64,000 nucleotides of DNA from Chloroflexota bacterium (GTDB lineage Bacteria; Chloroflexota; UBA11872; VXOZ01): contig JAAXIC010000009.1 in the NCBI GenBank assembly GCA_012270555.1, positions 17,415 through 81,414 on the forward strand. Direction: 5' to 3'. Position 1 is the first letter of the stretch; every line of letters starts with the position of its first letter. The position numbers were made by a program, and so were the translations under genes. Positions 13,508-31,817 of this stretch are shown here, one piece after another. The notes beneath the pieces were generated by a model. It was not told the DNA's origin. It did no database searches and worked only from the letters and a program-made list of their open reading frames with translations.

Positions 13508-15313
13508 CTAATGAACAACGCTCTCCACGTACTCCAGCGATTGATGCCGGAAGTACGTATCGTACAGTTCGGCGTAATGGCCTCCCGCTGCCAGCAGCGA
13601 CTGGTGGGTGCCTTCTTCCAAGATGCGACCGCCGTCCAACACGAGGATGCGGTCCGCGTGCTGCACGGTGTAGAGGCGGTGTGCAATCACGACAGACGTG
13701 CGGTCGCGCATGATAGCCTCTATACCGTCTTGAATCTGGACTTCGGTAAAGGGATCCACGCTCGCCGTGGCCTCATCCAGAATGAAGACGGCCGGATCGT
13801 GCAGCATGACACGCGCCAAGGCCACGAGTTGGCGCTGGCCCATGGAGAGGCGCCCGCCGCGCTCGCCGACGTCGGTATTCAGCCCGTTGGGCAGATCGGC
13901 CAGCCAATTGCCACCCGCGATATGCTCCACCGCGCGCAGCACGTCCGCCTCGTCGGCTTCGGGCTTGCCGTAGCGGATATTCTCGCCCACGCTGCCGCTA
14001 AAGAGGAACGGCGATTGGGGCACGATGCCGATCTGACGGCGGTATCCCGCCAGATCGAACGAGCGGATATCGCGCCCGTCAACGAGCAACTCGCCCTCCT
14101 GAAACTCATAGAAGCGCGCGACGAGCCGCACGATGCTCGTCTTGCCGGAGCCTGTGTGCCCTACCAGGGCAATTGACTCGCCCGGCCGGATACTCAAGCT
14201 GAAGTCCGGCAGCACGACTTCGCCGGGCAAGTAGCTGAAGCCCACGCGGCGAAACTCAAATCCTCCCCGCACGTCGTCGGCGGAAGCACTGCCGGTCTGC
14301 ACCACGCGGGGATCCGCGTCTATCAGCCCGAACACCCGTTCGCTGGCGGAGAGACCGTTCTGAAACTGGCTCCAAAACGAGGCGATCTGCGTCAGGGGAA
14401 ACCAGAAGAACATGAGGGCCTGGATGAAGAGGTACCAGTCGCCCACACTCATCGCGCCGGAGGCCGTGTTGATACCGCCGAAATACACGATGACGGCCGT
14501 GCCGACGCCGGCTGTCGCGTTGAAGACCGGGAAGAACGTATTGAATACGATGCCTTGCCGGAAATTCACCCGGTAGGCTTGCTCGTTGATGCGCACAAAG
14601 TCGTCGTGCACGGCCTTCTCCTGGCGAAAGACCTTGGCCACGGCGATGCCACTGATAGACTCCTCGATGTGGGCGTTCACACGAGCCATGATGCGGCGCG
14701 AGTGCAAGGACGTTTCCCGCGCGATCCGGCGGAACACTAACGAGATCGCCACGACGAGCGGCGCCATCACCAGCGTAATCAGCGCCAACTGCAGGTTGAT
14801 GAAGAGCAGCACGGCGCCCATCAGTATCACCAATATGATCTGGCTGATGAGGTTCATCGACAATGAGACCGTCTCGGCAAAGCCATCCGTGTCGGAAGAA
14901 ACGCGGCTAACCAGCTTGCCGGTGGGTTGATCGTCGAAGAATGAGAGGTCGTGGCCCATGGTGGCCTTGAACGCGTCCTCGCGTATCTTCATAGTCACGT
15001 TGCCGATGGCCACGGCGCCAACATACTGGCGGAGAAAATTGAGGGTCCAGGAAAAGCCGCTCAGCAGCAGAATGGCGACTACGAGCAAGACCACCGCCTG
15101 CAGCCGGGGATCGTTGACGATGAGATCGATGCCGCGCGAAATCAGAAATGGCACCGCCGTATCGGTGAGCGCCGCAATGAAGATGGCACCGGCAACGACC
15201 AGCATGTAGCGCCCCTGGGGACGAAAGTAGCGGATGATCCGGCGCAGCAAGTCACGATCGCTGTATTCGCGATCGTACGCGTCTGCGTCCAAGCCATCCA
15301 TCACAAAGCCCAT
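13508..15313 (-). CDS. ABC exporter half-transporter, catalytic-Glu subunit
   Basis: A 601-residue protein with six N-terminal membrane helices (ABC_membrane domain, to about residue 320) and a C-terminal nucleotide-binding domain. Walker A is GHTGSGKT, Walker B VFILDEATASVD with an intact catalytic Glu, and switch His in VVIAHRL. The signature is altered: LSMGQ instead of LSGGQ. The next half-transporter has the reciprocal pattern, so the two probably form a heterodimer with one consensus and one degenerate ATP site, as in TmrAB or TM287/288. Exported substrate unknown. It follows the partner by 206 bp containing palindromic repeats. Confidence 0.9.
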   Translation of the reverse strand: MGFVMDGLDADAYDREYSDRDLLRRIIRYFRPQGRYMLVVAGAIFIAALTDTAVPFLISRGIDLIVNDPRLQAVVLLVVAILLLSGFSWTLNFLRQYVGAVAIGNVTMKIREDAFKATMGHDLSFFDDQPTGKLVSRVSSDTDGFAETVSLSMNLISQIILVILMGAVLLFINLQLALITLVMAPLVVAISLVFRRIARETSLHSRRIMARVNAHIEESISGIAVAKVFRQEKAVHDDFVRINEQAYRVNFRQGIVFNTFFPVFNATAGVGTAVIVYFGGINTASGAMSVGDWYLFIQALMFFWFPLTQIASFWSQFQNGLSASERVFGLIDADPRVVQTGSASADDVRGGFEFRRVGFSYLPGEVVLPDFSLSIRPGESIALVGHTGSGKTSIVRLVARFYEFQEGELLVDGRDIRSFDLAGYRRQIGIVPQSPFLFSGSVGENIRYGKPEADEADVLRAVEHIAGGNWLADLPNGLNTDVGERGGRLSMGQRQLVALARVMLHDPAVFILDEATASVDPFTEVQIQDGIEAIMRDRTSVVIAHRLYTVQHADRILVLDGGRILEEGTHQSLLAAGGHYAELYDTYFRHQSLEYVESVVH

Positions 15314-15354
15314 TTAGCTAGTCCTCGTTCGGTGTGTGCAGTGTCAGACATCGT

Positions 15355-15380
15355 GTAGCGCTGGGGCTTGTTCCCCGCTT
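15355..15380. repeat. Dispersed palindrome, GTAGCG..GGGGCTTGTTCCCC family
   Basis: A copy of the dispersed repeat with core GGGGCTTGTYCCCC, a hairpin with a CTTGT loop. Better copies are at 50619-50647 and 54269-54297, and a degenerate one at 54312-54338. All lie outside genes. It sits in the gap between the two half-ABC exporter genes. Confidence 0.6.
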
Positions 15381-15412
15381 GTGACGCCTCGCACGCGGCA
15401 CGGACAAGATAG

Positions 15413-15456
15413 ATTCCGCGCCCCCGCACGGGGGCGAGCTTTCGCGGGAATGACGG
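15413..15456. repeat. Palindromic repeat ending GGGAATGACGG (intergenic copy)
   Basis: ATTCC at the left, a nested hairpin CCCCCGCACGGGGG, then TTTCGCGGGAATGACGG on the right. The nested architecture and right end match the 51-bp element embedded in the HisRS-like gene at 30670-30720. It is in the 206-bp gap between the two ABC exporter genes, which is the usual intergenic placement for such repeats. Confidence 0.7.
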
Positions 15457-15519
15457 ATTGACAGCCCGTCTTTTTTCCTAATGGCCATGTCTCTCATGCT
15501 ACCTTGGGTTCGTACTTCG

Positions 15520-17334
15520 TCATTCACTGACCAGTGTCGTCGGCATTGCCGCTGCGTAGCGCTCGTCCCGGTGGGCAAAGATGTTGCGGTAGGCCGGGCT
15601 CCGCGCCATCAGCTCCTCGTGGGTGCCTTGGTCCTCCAATTCGCCCCCGCGCATCACCAGAATGCGGTCGGCCCAGCGAATTTGCGATAGGCGATGCGTA
15701 ATCAAGAAGGTCGTCCGTCCGCGCAGGATATTGCGCAGCGCCCGTTGAATCTGGTCCTCCGTGGCGCTGTCGATCGCGCTCGTCGAGTCGTCCAGCACCA
15801 GAATGCGCGGGTCGGCCAGGAACGCGCGGGCGATAGCGATGCGTTGCCGCTGCCCGCCGGAAAGCGTCACGCCGCGTTCGCCGACAACCGTGTCGTAGCC
15901 ATCCTTGAAGCTCATGATGAAGTCATGGGCTTGGGCCTGCTTCGCGACTGCTTCAATCTCCTCGCGGCTCACGGGCCGGCGCACGCCGAACGCGATGTTC
16001 TCCGCCAGTGTGCGCGAAAAGAGGAAGACGTCCTGGTCAATCGTTGCAATCTGCGAGCGCAGCGACTCCATCGACCACACGCGCACGTCCACGCCGTCTA
16101 TCATCACGCGTCCTCCCGAGACCTCGTAGATGCGGTTGATGAGGCGGGTGAGGGTCGACTTGCCGGACCCGGTCTGCCCTACGATGGCAATGGTCTCTCC
16201 TGGTTTGGCTGCGAAGCTGATGCCCTTGAGCACGTCGGCATCGTGGTAGGCAAAGGAGACGTTGTCGAACGCCACGGCGCCTTCTATGCGCTTTTCGATA
16301 CCTGCCCGGTTCTCGTCGATTTCCGTCTCCGCGTTCAAGATGGCAAGGATGCGCTCGGATCCCGCAACTCCCAGCCTGACCATAGAGAACGCGAAGATCG
16401 AGACGAATGTCGGGAACCGCAGAATGCCCAGCAGTCCCATGAACGCAATTACCTCGCCGATTGTCAGCACGCCGTTTGCGTAGAGATAGACGGAATGGGC
16501 AAGGCCGAGCGCCAACGCAAAGGAGAACATGAGGAGGGGCAGATAGAGCGCCTGGATCTTACCTTGCTCGACGAATAGCTTGCGATAGTCGTTCGCCTTG
16601 GCGCGAAACCGGTGGAATTCTTGCTCTTCCTGGGCATTGGACTTGACGACCTCGATGCCGGCGATGGACTCGGTGAGCGTTGCGTTGAGCATGCCGAACT
16701 GCGCGCGCAGGGCGCCGGCCACCGGTCCCAAGCGGCGCAAGTAGCCCCGCAACGCAACGAGAAACAACAGCAAGAAGATTACGGGCACCGGCAACAACTC
16801 AACGCGCAAAAAGGCGACGGCGACAATAGGCACCACCATGAAGACGAGCCACTCCGAGAGCAAGAGCAGCCCCGGATTGACCATGAACTGAATCTGCCGC
16901 ACGTCATTCGTGGCGCGCGCCATGATGTCCCCAACGCGCTGCTGACCGTGGTACGTTTGGCTCTTGCCCAGCAAATTGACGTAGAGTTCTTCACGTACGT
17001 CGCGTTCCATGCGCAGCGCGACAATCTCGGCCAGGTAGTTCGCCAGCAGTTGCAGCACGCCGCGGAACACGCTGATGCCCAAGATCGCCAGCGCAAATCC
17101 CAGCAGAACGCCAAGCTCGGCGTCTGCTTGCGCGACGGCGTCAAATGCGCTGCCCATCAGTCTGGGCACCTGCACCGCCGCCACCACAACCGCGGCGCGA
17201 AAGACTGTGCCAATCACCAGTTGCAGCGGATAGCGCAGGGCATGACTGGCAAGCCACCGCCACACGGAAGAGTGATCGTACGTGTGTTCGGTATCAGGCG
17301 TAAACTCTCTGTTCTTCACCGGCGCCTCCGCCAA
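15520..17334 (-). CDS. ABC exporter half-transporter, degenerate-site subunit
   Basis: A 604-residue membrane-plus-ATPase protein. It has an ABC_membrane domain with six helices, Walker A GQTGSGKS, a canonical signature LSGGQRQRIAIARAF, Walker B ILVLDDSTSAID and switch His in FLITHRL. The catalytic Glu after Walker B is Asp, as in the degenerate site of heterodimeric exporters. Together with the downstream half-transporter (intact Glu, altered signature) this predicts an asymmetric pair. Start ATG 17334. Likely function: export of a lipid, peptide or xenobiotic across the cytoplasmic membrane. Confidence 0.9.
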   Translation of the reverse strand: MAEAPVKNREFTPDTEHTYDHSSVWRWLASHALRYPLQLVIGTVFRAAVVVAAVQVPRLMGSAFDAVAQADAELGVLLGFALAILGISVFRGVLQLLANYLAEIVALRMERDVREELYVNLLGKSQTYHGQQRVGDIMARATNDVRQIQFMVNPGLLLLSEWLVFMVVPIVAVAFLRVELLPVPVIFLLLFLVALRGYLRRLGPVAGALRAQFGMLNATLTESIAGIEVVKSNAQEEQEFHRFRAKANDYRKLFVEQGKIQALYLPLLMFSFALALGLAHSVYLYANGVLTIGEVIAFMGLLGILRFPTFVSIFAFSMVRLGVAGSERILAILNAETEIDENRAGIEKRIEGAVAFDNVSFAYHDADVLKGISFAAKPGETIAIVGQTGSGKSTLTRLINRIYEVSGGRVMIDGVDVRVWSMESLRSQIATIDQDVFLFSRTLAENIAFGVRRPVSREEIEAVAKQAQAHDFIMSFKDGYDTVVGERGVTLSGGQRQRIAIARAFLADPRILVLDDSTSAIDSATEDQIQRALRNILRGRTTFLITHRLSQIRWADRILVMRGGELEDQGTHEELMARSPAYRNIFAHRDERYAAAMPTTLVSE

Positions 17335-27861: not shown

Positions 27862-29243
27862 ACCGACGCTACTTCATTACACTGGCATTCATCGTCATCT
27901 TTGTCACAGTGGCTGGTTATGTCAATCTACCCGATAATCCCGGCCTAAATGTCGGCATCGGCAATGCTCGTCTCGTGCGCGATCTCCGCTATCATTTGGG
28001 ACTGGACTTACAGGGTGGCCTCCACGTGGTACTGCGCGCCACTCCCGCCGAAGGCCAGAACATCACTTCCGATCACATGGAAGCCACGCGCGACATCATT
28101 GCCGAACGCGTGAACGCCTTGGGCGTTTCGGAGCCCATCGTCCAACTGGAAGGCACCGACCGCATCATTGTCGAGCTCCCCGGCGTCGAGAATCCGGATG
28201 AGGCCATCGCGCTCTTTCGCGAAACCGGCGAGTTGGCCTTTGTTAACCTCGGCAGGAGTACGGTGCCGCCGATACAGGTTGGCGGACTCGTTGAAGGCGA
28301 ACAGTATCAAAGGCTCTTTACCGGCGCGATGGTCCAGTCTGCCGAAGTCGGCTTCGATGAACGCAGTCTGCCGCAGATCAACTTCGAACTCAAAGACGAA
28401 GGCGCGGTCATCTTCGAAGAGTTCACATCCCAGAACATCTGCGCGCGCGCTGGCGGCGTGCCCTGCACGTGGCTGGGCATAACCCTCGACAATACTCTCA
28501 TCTCCGCCGCGACCATTTCGAGCACAATCTCGAACCGCGGCCGCATTACCGGTAGCTTCACGTTGGAAGAGGTGCGAGACATCGTCATCAAGCTCAAGTA
28601 CGGCGCGTTGCCGGTGCCGTTGGAAATCGCGCAGAACCGTACCGTTGGCCCCACGCTCGGCCAAGATTCCGTCGACCGCAGCCTGCGGGCTGGCATCATC
28701 GGCCTCGTGCTCGTTGCCGTATTCATGCTCATCTACTACCGCCTGCCCGGTGTGGTCGCCGTTGTGGCCTTGCTGATCTACGCGCTCCTCGTGCTCGGCA
28801 TTTTCAGGCTATGGCCTGTGGTCCTCACGCTGGCAGGCATCGCCGGCTTTATTCTCTCGGTGGGCATGGCCGTGGATGCCAACATCCTCATCTTTGAGCG
28901 CCTCAAGGAAGAGTTGCGCCGGGGCAGGACGTTGCGCTCCGCGTTGGACGTTGGCTTTGACCGCGCGTGGACGTCGATTCGGGACTCCAACATTTCTACC
29001 CTCATCACCTGCGCGGTGCTCTTCTACTTCGGCACGGGCATCGTGCGCGGTTTTGCCGTGACGCTTGCCATCGGCGTGATCATAAGCATGTTCACGGCGA
29101 TAACGGTTACGCGGACGTTCCTCTATGTTGTGGTGCGTCTCCCGCAATTCCGTGATGCGCCGTGGCTGTATGGCGTAGGCGAGACGCAGGAGCAGTCTCT
29201 CGCACCACGACAAACGCCGCCCCAGCAAGCAACAGAGCCGTAG
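27858..29243 (+). CDS. secD: Protein translocase subunit SecD
   Basis: A 461-residue inner-membrane RND-type protein that, with SecF, uses the proton gradient to help proteins exit the Sec channel. One N-terminal helix, then the P1 periplasmic domain starting [15 protein letters not shown], the [17 protein letters not shown] and [14 protein letters not shown] segments, and five C-terminal helices including [19 protein letters not shown] (TM4 motif with charged residues) and [16 protein letters not shown]. Starts inside the recA stop. secF is not next but 2.7 kb downstream, after two histidine-related genes. Confidence 0.96.
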
Positions 29244-29257
29244 GTTGTGAGACCGCG

Positions 29258-30808
29258 ATGTCGCTAGAAACCCGTCCCGTAGACTCCGTGCGCGGGATGC
29301 TGGATCTCAATTCCCAGCAGGCCCACGCGCACGCCCAAGTGCGGCACTCTCTCCTCGCTGCCTTTCAACTTGCGGGCTACAGCCCGATAGAAGTCCCGCT
29401 CGTAGAGCAGGCCGACCTCTACTTGCGCAAGTCCGGCGCTGAGATAATCTCGAAGATGTATACGTTCGAGGATTTTGGCGGACGGCGTCTCGCACTGCGT
29501 CCGGAACTCACGGCCTCCATCGTCCGTTACTACCTGAGCAACGATCAGAACCTGCCGTTTCCTTTGCGCTACGCGTACAGCGGACCGGTGTTTCGCTATG
29601 AAAAACCGCAACGCGGCCGCTTTCGCCAGTTTTCGATGGCCGGCGTGGAGTTGCTCGGCAGCGACGGGCCGTCCGCCGATGCGGAAGTGATCGCGCTGGC
29701 ATGCTGGACGCTGAAGCGCCTTGGCGTTGAAAAATATCGGCTAGTCATCGGCCACGTGGGCATCCTGCTCGAATTGCTTGGCAGCCTGGGGCTCTCATCC
29801 CGCCTGCGTCACTTCTTACTCGACAGCATGGAAGACGTGGGCAGGCCCGGGCGCGGTCTCGACTATGTACGTAAACGTTTAGAAGAGATCCATCCTGCTC
29901 AGCGCACCGCTACACCAAGCGATGAGATGCTGCCTCGTTCCGAAGACGAGGCACGCGCAGCGCTGCGCGCTTCACTCCAGGAGATGGGAATTGAACTGAG
30001 CGGCAGCCGACCGGCGGAGGCGATCATTGGCCGCATGTTTCAAAAGCAGCGTGCGACTGACGAAGACGAGCGCGTGGAACGCGCGTTCGCATTCATCCAA
30101 GGCTTGCACAACCTCAGAGGAGCGCCAGGGGAAGTCCTGGAACGCGCGCGGGCTTTTCTTACGGAGTACGGCCTGGGGGACGAGTCCCTTAGCCGTCTCG
30201 CCGACGTGATGGCCGCGCTCGCGGCCTACGACATAGACGAAACACACGTCCAAGTCCAACTTGCCCTGGGTCGCGGCCTCCACTACTACACGGACGTGGT
30301 GTTCGAATTGTATGACGCATCCGGCGAGAGTCAACTGTGCGGCGGCGGCCGCTACAACGAACTCGTGCAGTCGCTGGGCGGGCGTAAGTCGATTCCGGCG
30401 GTTGGCTTCGCCTTTGGCCTCGAGCGCCTCCGTCTGGCATTGGAGGCGCAAGGCGCCCCACTGCCTACACCGCCGCAAACACAGGTGCTCGTAGCCGCAG
30501 TCTCCTCCAGCGCCACCCACGCCAGCATGCAGGCCGCCCAGTGGCTCCGCGAGCACGGCGTTCGAGCTGAGCTCGATCTACGGCAGCGCGCCGTACGTGC
30601 GCAGATAAGCTACGCGAACCGGAGGTCAGTGCCTTTTCTCCTGCTGGTTGAGCAAGTCGCGGCAAAGACGGATTCCGGCCCCGTATCAAGTACGGGGCAG
30701 GCATTTCGCCGGAATGACGGTACGGAGACCGTTACCCTCCGCCGGCTTGCAGAGGGTACCGAGCAAGCGCTGTCGCTAAGGGAAGTGGTGCAGGTGGTCA
30801 ATGGCTGA
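29258..30808 (+). CDS. Histidyl-tRNA synthetase-like protein (HisS or HisZ-like paralogue)
   Basis: A 516-residue class II synthetase-like protein. It has catalytic motifs (LALRPELTAS at 78-87, VFRYEKPQRGRFRQF at 111-125, CGGGRYNEL at 361-369) and a C-terminal anticodon-binding-type domain from about 405. Two residues nearly invariant in HisRS differ: the motif 2 Gln (E. coli Gln127, FHQ) is Met127 in RQFSMAG, and RGLDYY reads RGLHYY at 339-344. So it may be a HisRS paralogue, for example HisZ-like, rather than the charging enzyme. Residues about 472-487 are encoded by an inserted palindromic repeat. The next gene, hisG, overlaps by 8 bp. Confidence 0.75.
   Translation: MSLETRPVDSVRGMLDLNSQQAHAHAQVRHSLLAAFQLAGYSPIEVPLVEQADLYLRKSGAEIISKMYTFEDFGGRRLALRPELTASIVRYYLSNDQNLPFPLRYAYSGPVFRYEKPQRGRFRQFSMAGVELLGSDGPSADAEVIALACWTLKRLGVEKYRLVIGHVGILLELLGSLGLSSRLRHFLLDSMEDVGRPGRGLDYVRKRLEEIHPAQRTATPSDEMLPRSEDEARAALRASLQEMGIELSGSRPAEAIIGRMFQKQRATDEDERVERAFAFIQGLHNLRGAPGEVLERARAFLTEYGLGDESLSRLADVMAALAAYDIDETHVQVQLALGRGLHYYTDVVFELYDASGESQLCGGGRYNELVQSLGGRKSIPAVGFAFGLERLRLALEAQGAPLPTPPQTQVLVAAVSSSATHASMQAAQWLREHGVRAELDLRQRAVRAQISYANRRSVPFLLLVEQVAAKTDSGPVSSTGQAFRRNDGTETVTLRRLAEGTEQALSLREVVQVVNG
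30670..30720. repeat. Palindromic repeat inserted in frame inside the HisRS-like gene
   Basis: A 51-bp element with outer inverted repeat ATTCCGGC (30672-30679) / GCCGGAAT (30708-30715) and an inner 8-bp stem GCCCCGTA (30678-30685) / TACGGGGC (30691-30698) around TCAAG. Its right end GGAATGACGG matches the intergenic copy at 15413-15456. It adds 17 codons with no stop, between VEQVAAK and TETVTLRRL. Removing those codons restores the spacing seen in HisRS anticodon-binding domains. It behaves like a protein-coding palindromic insertion of the kind known from Rickettsia. Confidence 0.75.
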
Positions 30809-31817
30809 AACCCTGCGCCTGCTCGTGCCGAGCAAGGGCCGCATCGGAGAACAGACTCTGGAGTTCTTCGCCACGTGCGGCCTTGATGTCGTGCGCCCAA
30901 ACTCGCGGGCGTATGAAGCCACGCTCCCCACGGTAGCCAATGTAGCCGTACTCTTCCAACGCGCGTGGCAGATGGTCGAGCAAGTACGCAGCGGCGACGC
31001 CGATGCCGGCATTACGGGTTTCGACATCCTGTCTGAAATGCGGCAAGAAGGCGACGACTTGGTGGTGGTCGCGGCAAACCTCGGCTACTCCCACGGGCGG
31101 CTTGCCATTGCCGTGCCGGAGGAGTGGATCGATGTCCGCACGTTGACCGATCTTGCCGAGGTAGCGCTGGAGTTTCGGGAGAGAGGCCGGGTGCTGCGCA
31201 TTGCCACGACATTTCCTTCCCTGACCCGCCAGTTTCTCTTTCAGCAGGGGATCACCTACTTCCAAGTCGTGCAAGCCGAGGGCGGTCTGGAAGCGGCGCC
31301 AACGCTGGGCTACGCCGACATCATCGTCGATTTGGTATCCACCGGCGCCACGCTCAAAGACAACCGTCTCAAGATGATCGAACACGGCGTCATCCTGCGC
31401 ACGCAGGCATGCCTCATCGGTAACCGCGAACGGCTGCGTGCAAGTTCTACCAAACGGGAGGCGCTGCGTCAGATTCTGGAATTCATAGAGTCGTCGCAAC
31501 GCGCCGCTCCGTATTCGACGCTCACTGCGAACATGCAAGGAGATTCCGCGGAGGCAGTCGCCGCCACGCTGGCGGCCTTCCCGGAAGTAGGCGGTCTGCT
31601 CGGCCCAACGATTGCGCGTGTCTTTGCCAGGGATGAGCAGGACAACTCGTGGTTTGCCGTAACCGTGCAAGTCAAGTCGCGGGACTTGCTGGCTGCGGTG
31701 GCAAGCCTGCGGCAGGCAGGCTGCGTGAGCGTTTCGGTGACCTCGCCGCACTATATCTTTGCGCGCGAGTGCACCTTATACCAGGGCCTTCTCAAGACAC
31801 TGAGATTAGCAGAGTAG
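30801..31817 (+). CDS. hisG: ATP phosphoribosyltransferase, long form
   Basis: A 338-residue enzyme catalysing the first step of histidine synthesis (ATP + PRPP to phosphoribosyl-ATP). The catalytic part includes RLLVPSKGRIGEQTLEFF, GDADAGITGFDIL and the PRPP loop around YADIIVDLVSTGATLKDNRL. Residues about 240-338 are a C-terminal domain resembling the ACT-like regulatory HisG_C domain (FAVTVQVKSRDLLAAVASLRQ), so this is the long form, which does not need HisZ. It overlaps the HisRS-like gene by 8 bp. No other his gene is in the window. Confidence 0.93.
   Translation: MAETLRLLVPSKGRIGEQTLEFFATCGLDVVRPNSRAYEATLPTVANVAVLFQRAWQMVEQVRSGDADAGITGFDILSEMRQEGDDLVVVAANLGYSHGRLAIAVPEEWIDVRTLTDLAEVALEFRERGRVLRIATTFPSLTRQFLFQQGITYFQVVQAEGGLEAAPTLGYADIIVDLVSTGATLKDNRLKMIEHGVILRTQACLIGNRERLRASSTKREALRQILEFIESSQRAAPYSTLTANMQGDSAEAVAATLAAFPEVGGLLGPTIARVFARDEQDNSWFAVTVQVKSRDLLAAVASLRQAGCVSVSVTSPHYIFARECTLYQGLLKTLRLAE

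Follow-up and report, generated by a model that had tools for sequence, protein, structure and literature searches.

The hisZ/hisS-like gene of the window, the 64,000-nucleotide stretch of Chloroflexota DNA analyzed here, carried in frame a 51-bp composite of two dispersed palindromic repeats, one nested in the other. This composite probably arose (a probability of about 0.78 is assigned) by two successive insertions, each of which would have kept the reading frame: a 27-bp CGTC-type REP, followed by an independent 24-bp palindrome in its loop. The features referred to below were as follows.

29258..30808, + strand: hisZ/hisS-like gene hosting the element, 516 aa, with a HisRS anticodon domain
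30801..31817, + strand: hisG (TIGR00070, 176.4 bits), its start overlapping the 3′ end of hisZ/hisS-like, frame intact
30670..30720, + strand: composite element of 51 bp, outer CGTC-type REP with nested 24-bp unit
30669..30679, + strand: left part of the outer CGTC-1-type REP, CGG followed by the stem arm ATTCCGGC
30680..30703, + strand: inner dispersed palindromic unit, 24 bp or 8 codons
30704..30719, + strand: right part of the outer REP, with loop TTTC, stem arm GCCGGAAT and tag GACG (CGTC on the other strand)
30655..30717, + strand: approximate net insertion relative to G001–G004, 63 bp or 21 codons
15413..15456, + strand: intergenic member of the outer REP family, in the long form and with another inner stem

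The genome of the window (G000) comprised 3.18 Mb in 56 contigs and was compared with five other members of the genus (G001–G005); the genomes carrying the compared genes were drafts, mostly of many contigs. The start of the host gene was set at 29258, the longest open reading frame beginning at 29162, and the PF03129 match spanned residues 409–514. The label HisZ/HisRS-like was given because the protein passed the hisS model in profile search (TIGR00442, 318.6 bits, cut-off 286.75) and narrowly missed the hisZ model (TIGR00443, 263 bits, cut-off 271.65), with hisG adjoining and a second HisRS-like gene elsewhere in G000 (C8:188197-189285). The hisZ/hisG pair was flanked by ORFs that we take to be secD-like and secF-like. 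The host gene had no stop or frameshift, retained the columns invariant in 53 homologues, and had a dN/dS of 0.09–0.12 against G001–G004, placing it under purifying selection in these comparisons; the hisG ratio within the genus was 0.055–0.068. The 69%-complete genome G005 contributed only the last 80 codons of the hisZ-like gene, for which dN/dS against G000 was 0.385 on 19 changes, too few to weigh. The adjoining HisG had a HisG_C domain, an odd pairing with HisZ, since a long-form HisG with HisG_C is not expected to need HisZ.

The segment 30670–30720 began at a third codon base and contained no stop in frame, and as single-stranded DNA positions 30665–30724 folded into nested stems (-14.7 kcal/mol, z -3.33, equalled by 0 of 200 shuffles). 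The in-frame palindromic repeat with nested inverted repeats proposed in the original prediction was thus borne out; it had been taken for one element, and the dispersed palindrome in frame stood, but it consisted of two independent repeats. The right end said to be common to this element and the copy at 15413–15456 was indeed identical at 16 of 17 bases. The intergenic copy lay in the spacer between two minus-strand ORFs (13508–15313 and 15520–17334) and folded more weakly (15405–15460, z -1.46, 18 of 200 shuffles as good); an 86-aa minus-strand ORF spanning it (15318–15578) was not accepted as a gene. The two window copies were weak evidence on their own, because two or more right-end matches also turned up in 7 of 100 shuffles of the window.

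The genome-wide search was far more telling: the right end TTTCGCSGGAATGACGG had 157 matches in G000 at ≤2 mismatches and the reversed control pattern had none, and 13 of the 117 copies examined lay in frame within genes. The examined set consisted of stretches round 100 listed places, holding 129 matches at ≤3 mismatches; the 117 among them at ≤2 were all 96 copies with 0–1 mismatch and 21 of the 61 with 2, the remaining 40 all having 2. The short form, TGG-ATTCCSGC-TTTC-GCSGGAAT-GACG, was 27 bp (9 codons) long and made up of a 4-bp tag, two 8-bp stem arms round a 4-base loop, and a 3-bp tail; its spacing was found in 76 of the 117, with a longer inner part in 34, including the hisZ copy, and 7 unassigned. 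Over the 117 copies the C of GAC was conserved at 0.99 and the next G at 0.97, and the hisZ copy had GACGG, i.e., CGTC on the opposite strand. Among the 108 copies whose left flank could be read, the fraction with TGG, corresponding to a CCA tail, was 0.99.

The REPs of family CGTC-1 are described, in the available text of Di Nocera et al. (2013; PMC3733652), as having a CGTC tag, an 8-bp stem with AT first, a four-base loop and mostly a CCA tail. The outer repeat had the CGTC tag by the stem, an 8-bp stem starting from AT, a four-base loop and dispersal at high copy number (157 in G000), and is, judged by its sequence, a CGTC-type REP with the layout of family CGTC-1. It resembled the published family, as presented in that text, in having a tag at one end, a stem, a loop and a three-base tail, and in its many copies, mostly intergenic and some intragenic; the hisZ copy differed in its tail, CCG (read as CGG) instead of CCA, and in the 24-bp unit in its loop. 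Its distribution across the phylum was patchy. At one mismatch the right-end pattern was present in 18 of 61 genomes (G000 included), among them all six genus members with 71–191 copies, and at two mismatches the short core was present in 23 of 201 genomes of the phylum (G000 included), 11 of them with at least 60 copies. Rfam returned two matches only, both far under the gathering score. For nine intergenic copies (L062, L068) compared with sister genomes, the spacers were too diverged for empty sites or target duplications to be read.

Comparison with relatives showed the insert to be absent from the hisZ-like gene of G001–G004; residues 472–488, whose absence from sisters the original prediction proposed as a check, were indeed lacking there. 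The gene of these genomes was 21 codons shorter (63 bp, not 51), and the expectation that removal of 17 codons would restore the usual length did not hold. The exact ends of the 63-bp insertion are ambiguous because the flanking codons vary among species. G005 had the short form at the same place and in the same frame, its left arm altered by two substitutions. A database protein 96% identical to the host protein (P0001, known here from protein, not DNA) likewise had the short form, and no insert was found there in the 14 other database proteins aligned. Removal of the 24 bp from the window gave EQVAAKTDSGFRRNDGTETVTLRRL, as in P0001, letter for letter over 25 residues. Nucleotide identity of hisG to G000 was 94.4% for G005, 91.7% for G004, 82.6% for G002, 78.6% for G001 and 76.0% for G003, an order under which a single acquisition of the REP accounts for where it is found. 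Three loci from Chloroflexota MAGs holding the same gene at 74–86% identity (L170–L172) were without the insert, judged by length; a fourth locus with the same gene, at 39% identity, was labelled Patescibacteria. No insert of the same length with unrelated DNA was found in the homologues compared, and further genomic copies of the element exist, both in keeping with the initial interpretation. Four close relatives among the database proteins (P0010–P0012 and P0014) had an in-frame insert of another kind, RASTGSARTGEAAQAEGSARTG... and up to ~125 residues long, in a separate HisZ loop (residues ~216–223 of the window protein); it resembles a translated second dispersed repeat, and this loop had pLDDT <50 in the model of the window protein.

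An AlphaFold2 model of the HisZ-like protein, based on 53 sequences (mean pLDDT 83.2), placed residues 465–490 in coil between strands 460–464 and 491–496, with pLDDT <50 at residues 471–476 and 478–483. The insert is therefore predicted to lengthen a hairpin turn of low model confidence in the anticodon domain.

The inner 24-bp palindrome was a repeat independent of the outer REP. The unit, CCCCGTATCRAGTACGGGGCAGGC, had 73 copies in G000 at ≤3 mismatches and 28–100 in the five other genus genomes, with none for the reversed control. By script, 68 of the 73 were assigned to four host repeats, namely GTAG-REPs (25), the CCCTCACCCTARCCCTCTCCC repeat (23), the CCGTTCGCCCTGAGCCTGTCGAAGGG repeat (15) and CGTC-REPs (5). 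Both flanks matched one spot per host in 60 units and the right flank only in 8, the latter because a further palindrome sits inside the unit. Of the five units unassigned by script, inspection by eye placed two in CGTC-REPs, with the unit reversed and near but not exactly at the same spot, and a third beside the right flank only of the third host family, so that 71 of 73 lay inside a host repeat (68 by script, 3 by eye) and two were true outliers. The unit added 24 bp at one spot per host family, read by eye as C^CT, or as C^TT in CGTC-REPs. No consistent target duplication was seen by eye in the contexts of the units, and only one gain within a locus, that in hisZ, was observed; at C42:16132 the spacer was too diverged for the empty site, ends or target duplication to be read. 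The loop variants CGAG, CAAG and CACG each occurred in three or more of the host families, and this speaks against four separate founder events. Simple and composite copies stood at 26:3, 34:2, 16:1 and 80:3 in stretches selected for CGTC copies, ratios obtained with differing pattern stringency and no shuffle control.

These observations could be accounted for by a repeat-specific mini-element whose insertions are nearly confined to other palindromic repeats, namely GTAG-REPs, CGTC-REPs and two additional families, at one fixed spot in each on the 3′ side of a C, and which lengthens proteins by whole codons through REPs already lying in genes. This proposal is tentative and somewhat doubtful; if it were true, a parasite of REPs that feeds the growth of loops in frame would represent a type of element without description in the open-licence literature searched. 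For the 73 units as a whole, the spread of ready-made composites is a possible alternative to insertion. A third level of nesting was seen in eight G000 copies, in which a further palindrome (~18 bp by eye in a GTAG host) lay inside the 24-bp unit (C30:1009, L316, L323, L322, L319, L325, C8:2483 and L326).

The data show that the repeats are dispersed, nested and present in frame, that sisters lack the insert and that relatives have a short form; the movement, order and tolerance that follow are inferred. In a first step, placed by presence and absence, the REP would have entered the gene after the split from G004, in the common progenitor of G000, G005 and the P0001 lineage, at a strand-to-strand turn of the anticodon domain, with a net gain of 13 codons; some 4 of these lie outside the 27-bp core and may have come with the repeat, beside it or by drift. 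In a second step, the 24-bp unit would have inserted into the loop of the REP, a gain of 8 codons, most likely in the window's lineage, since G005 and P0001 have the outer repeat only. As each unit has a length divisible by three and no stop in its frame, neither would have broken the gene, and the protein is predicted to tolerate them since this loop falls outside the core of the fold.

For the second step, gene conversion is a serious competing explanation: a composite REP would have overwritten the simple hisZ REP without movement of the 24-bp unit itself. This explanation has a substantial though less than even chance of being correct. Composite REPs are on hand as donors, the copy at C14:111352 has the CAAG loop and the CAGGCA end in common with hisZ, and the unit loop variants are shared by several host repeats. 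However, homology of ~25 bp would be short for conversion, and none of the few composite CGTC-REPs listed (among 117 of the 157 copies) matched both hisZ arms by eye. It is unlikely that a ready-made composite entered hisZ once and lost its inner unit later in G005 and the P0001 lineage; such composites do occur elsewhere in G000 (e.g., C17:108746 and C8:2483), but two precise 24-bp losses would be needed if P0001 is nearer to G000 than G005 is (otherwise one gain suffices), a branching order that rests on one protein and no tree. Co-option of the insert for a function, such as an mRNA hairpin near the hisZ–hisG overlap or a binding loop of HisZ, is improbable: the window element still folds and an insert is retained in G000, G005 and P0001, but its length and sequence differ among these nearest relatives, its residues are low-confidence coil, and nothing in Rfam exceeded the gathering score. 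That hisZ is a decaying pseudogene, in frame by luck, can be given very little credence, for although the separate HisRS-like gene and the HisG_C domain suggest that HisZ might be dispensable and the G005 ratio is higher, the low dN/dS against G001–G004, the intact frame and the conserved columns speak against it.

Under the two-step history, the repeats would likely have moved as single-strand hairpins mobilized in trans by a Y1/HUH transposase, or by gene conversion between repeats, after which selection would retain only in-frame copies in loops. Y1 transposase matches were present in five of the six genus genomes, and GTAG repeats lay in opposite orientation on the two sides at 5 of 11 Y1_Tnp loci, an arrangement shared with GTAG-REP REPtrons; the hisZ element differs from these in having CGTC, not GTAG, and a CGTC copy was found in none of the 11 loci (~3 kb each, Y1 type only). 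The CGTC-1 REPs of the 2013 survey similarly had, in its available text, no transposase gene flanked by the repeat (PMC3733652). The REP-associated Y1 enzyme of E. coli cuts at CT beside the REP (PMC8266576, available text), and the right end of the 24-bp unit, as parsed, is CT. The REPtron-like Y1 loci were L263 (G000:C12:78738), L256–L258 and L265; the Y1 match of L263 was covered by two overlapping frames and is apparently frameshifted. IS110-type elements that target REPs, such as ISPpu9, are possible further movers. Targeting of REPs by ISPpu9 is reported in the available text of PMC8450116.

In-frame REPs within genes have already been published, and the hisZ case is not new in kind. The available text of the 2013 survey reports REPs of either superfamily in genes including uvrA, uvrB and tRNA synthetase genes (three species), with GTAG or CGTC not given per gene (PMC3733652), which takes away part of the novelty first claimed; the phylum is what stayed new, since the same text lists CGTC repeats for five phyla without Chloroflexi, for which GTAG repeats only are given. 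It further includes Neisseria dRS3 and Rickettsia RPE-6 in CGTC-1, and equates RPE-4 with CGTC-4. Rickettsia RPE-4 and RPE-6 are thus comparable as palindromes in frame in many genes, a link made through that equation, and differ in occurring in another phylum. The text of the 2025 RepRanger paper, as available, has the word “intragenic” 0 times and CGTC once, in a reference (PMC12306157). BIMEs and Neisseria NIMEs are mosaic repeats; the present case departs from them in that a single 24-bp unit sits at a constant position within each of four distinct host repeats. The available text of PMC3733652 also reports repeats that accompany other palindromes or lie inside them as insertions. Compared with that text, what is new here is the phylum in which CGTC-REPs occur, the nesting described above and the host loops conserved throughout the genus; in the open-licence literature searched, no description was found of Chloroflexota CGTC-REPs, of genus-conserved loops fed by repeats, or of a 24-bp unit nearly confined to repeats. 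Coding CGTC-REPs are thereby extended to Chloroflexota, and, if the inferred order is right, hisZ records how nested repeats lengthened a loop by exact codons in two steps, and the intermediate survives in close relatives. The 24-bp unit, nearly confined to repeats, offers a concrete substrate for asking how REPs lacking their own transposase are moved.

In-frame copies in other genes were sought among the 129 matches with a codon-usage screen, which can miss genes, and 14 candidates were obtained. One with three mismatches (C51:21895), within NPPY in what we take to be a methylase motif, was dismissed as chance. The other 13 copies, all from the 117 at ≤2 mismatches, lay in eight ORFs, as follows.

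Three copies: UvrA
Two copies each: MoeA/Glp-like protein; FadB/J-like enzyme; Type ISP restriction enzyme
One copy each: APH-fold kinase; PF02636 protein, presumably a MidA-like methyltransferase; DUF2298/PMT_2 membrane protein; HisZ

Genus orthologues were compared for six of the seven ORFs other than HisZ, the Type ISP restriction enzyme being left out. In UvrA, MoeA, the methyltransferase, the kinase and the FadB/J-like enzyme, element-like inserts of variable length occupied the same loop in every genus member covering it, as judged by eye; some of these copies were degenerate, e.g., in the methyltransferase of G002, and G005 was incomplete for three of the five proteins, its MoeA loop lying outside the data. 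The UvrA anchors were separated by 79 residues in G000, 58 in G005, 61 in G001, 159 in G004, 146 in G002 and 340 in G003, while all 24 loci examined outside the genus had 0–15 extra residues there, including those of six repeat-rich g3 genomes. Residues 250–326 of UvrA fell between contiguous positions of a solved homologue, and residues 326–388 of MoeA replaced 2 residues. The membrane-protein insert was present in G000 and G004 only, of the five genomes yielding the gene. The long variable loops of UvrA, MoeA and the three other proteins were likely built by the process proposed for hisZ. The genus thus has five proteins bearing a repeat-fed loop in every species covering it, of 58–340 residues in UvrA, and the entry of REPs into genes and their survival there become testable by comparison.

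The REP core was open in five of six frames, and the 13 copies used the RHSRESGNP-type frame 5 times, the DSRFRGND type 4 times and the VIPAKAGI type 4 times, with WIPAFAGMT and SFPRKRES at 0; this use, noticed post hoc, fits selection for soluble loops. In other families, translated matches in 12 stretches (from G015, G025, G028 and G021) had open frames that, judged by eye, resembled chance frames of GC-rich DNA more than genes. Near the C-terminal end of its stretch, the UvrA of G000 (L017, contig C20) had a second repeat-like insert, GPSTSSGRTAGGSGQAPSTNSVHGPSTSSGRTA. The open frame of the G003 UvrA (L119/L179) ran to 1494 residues, 340 of them in an insert built from RHSRESGNP-type and GGNDGQ-type units, and in the MidA-like protein of the same genome (L125) the REP loop had grown into a low-complexity array, GGHTPSSGHTSSGGHTPSS.
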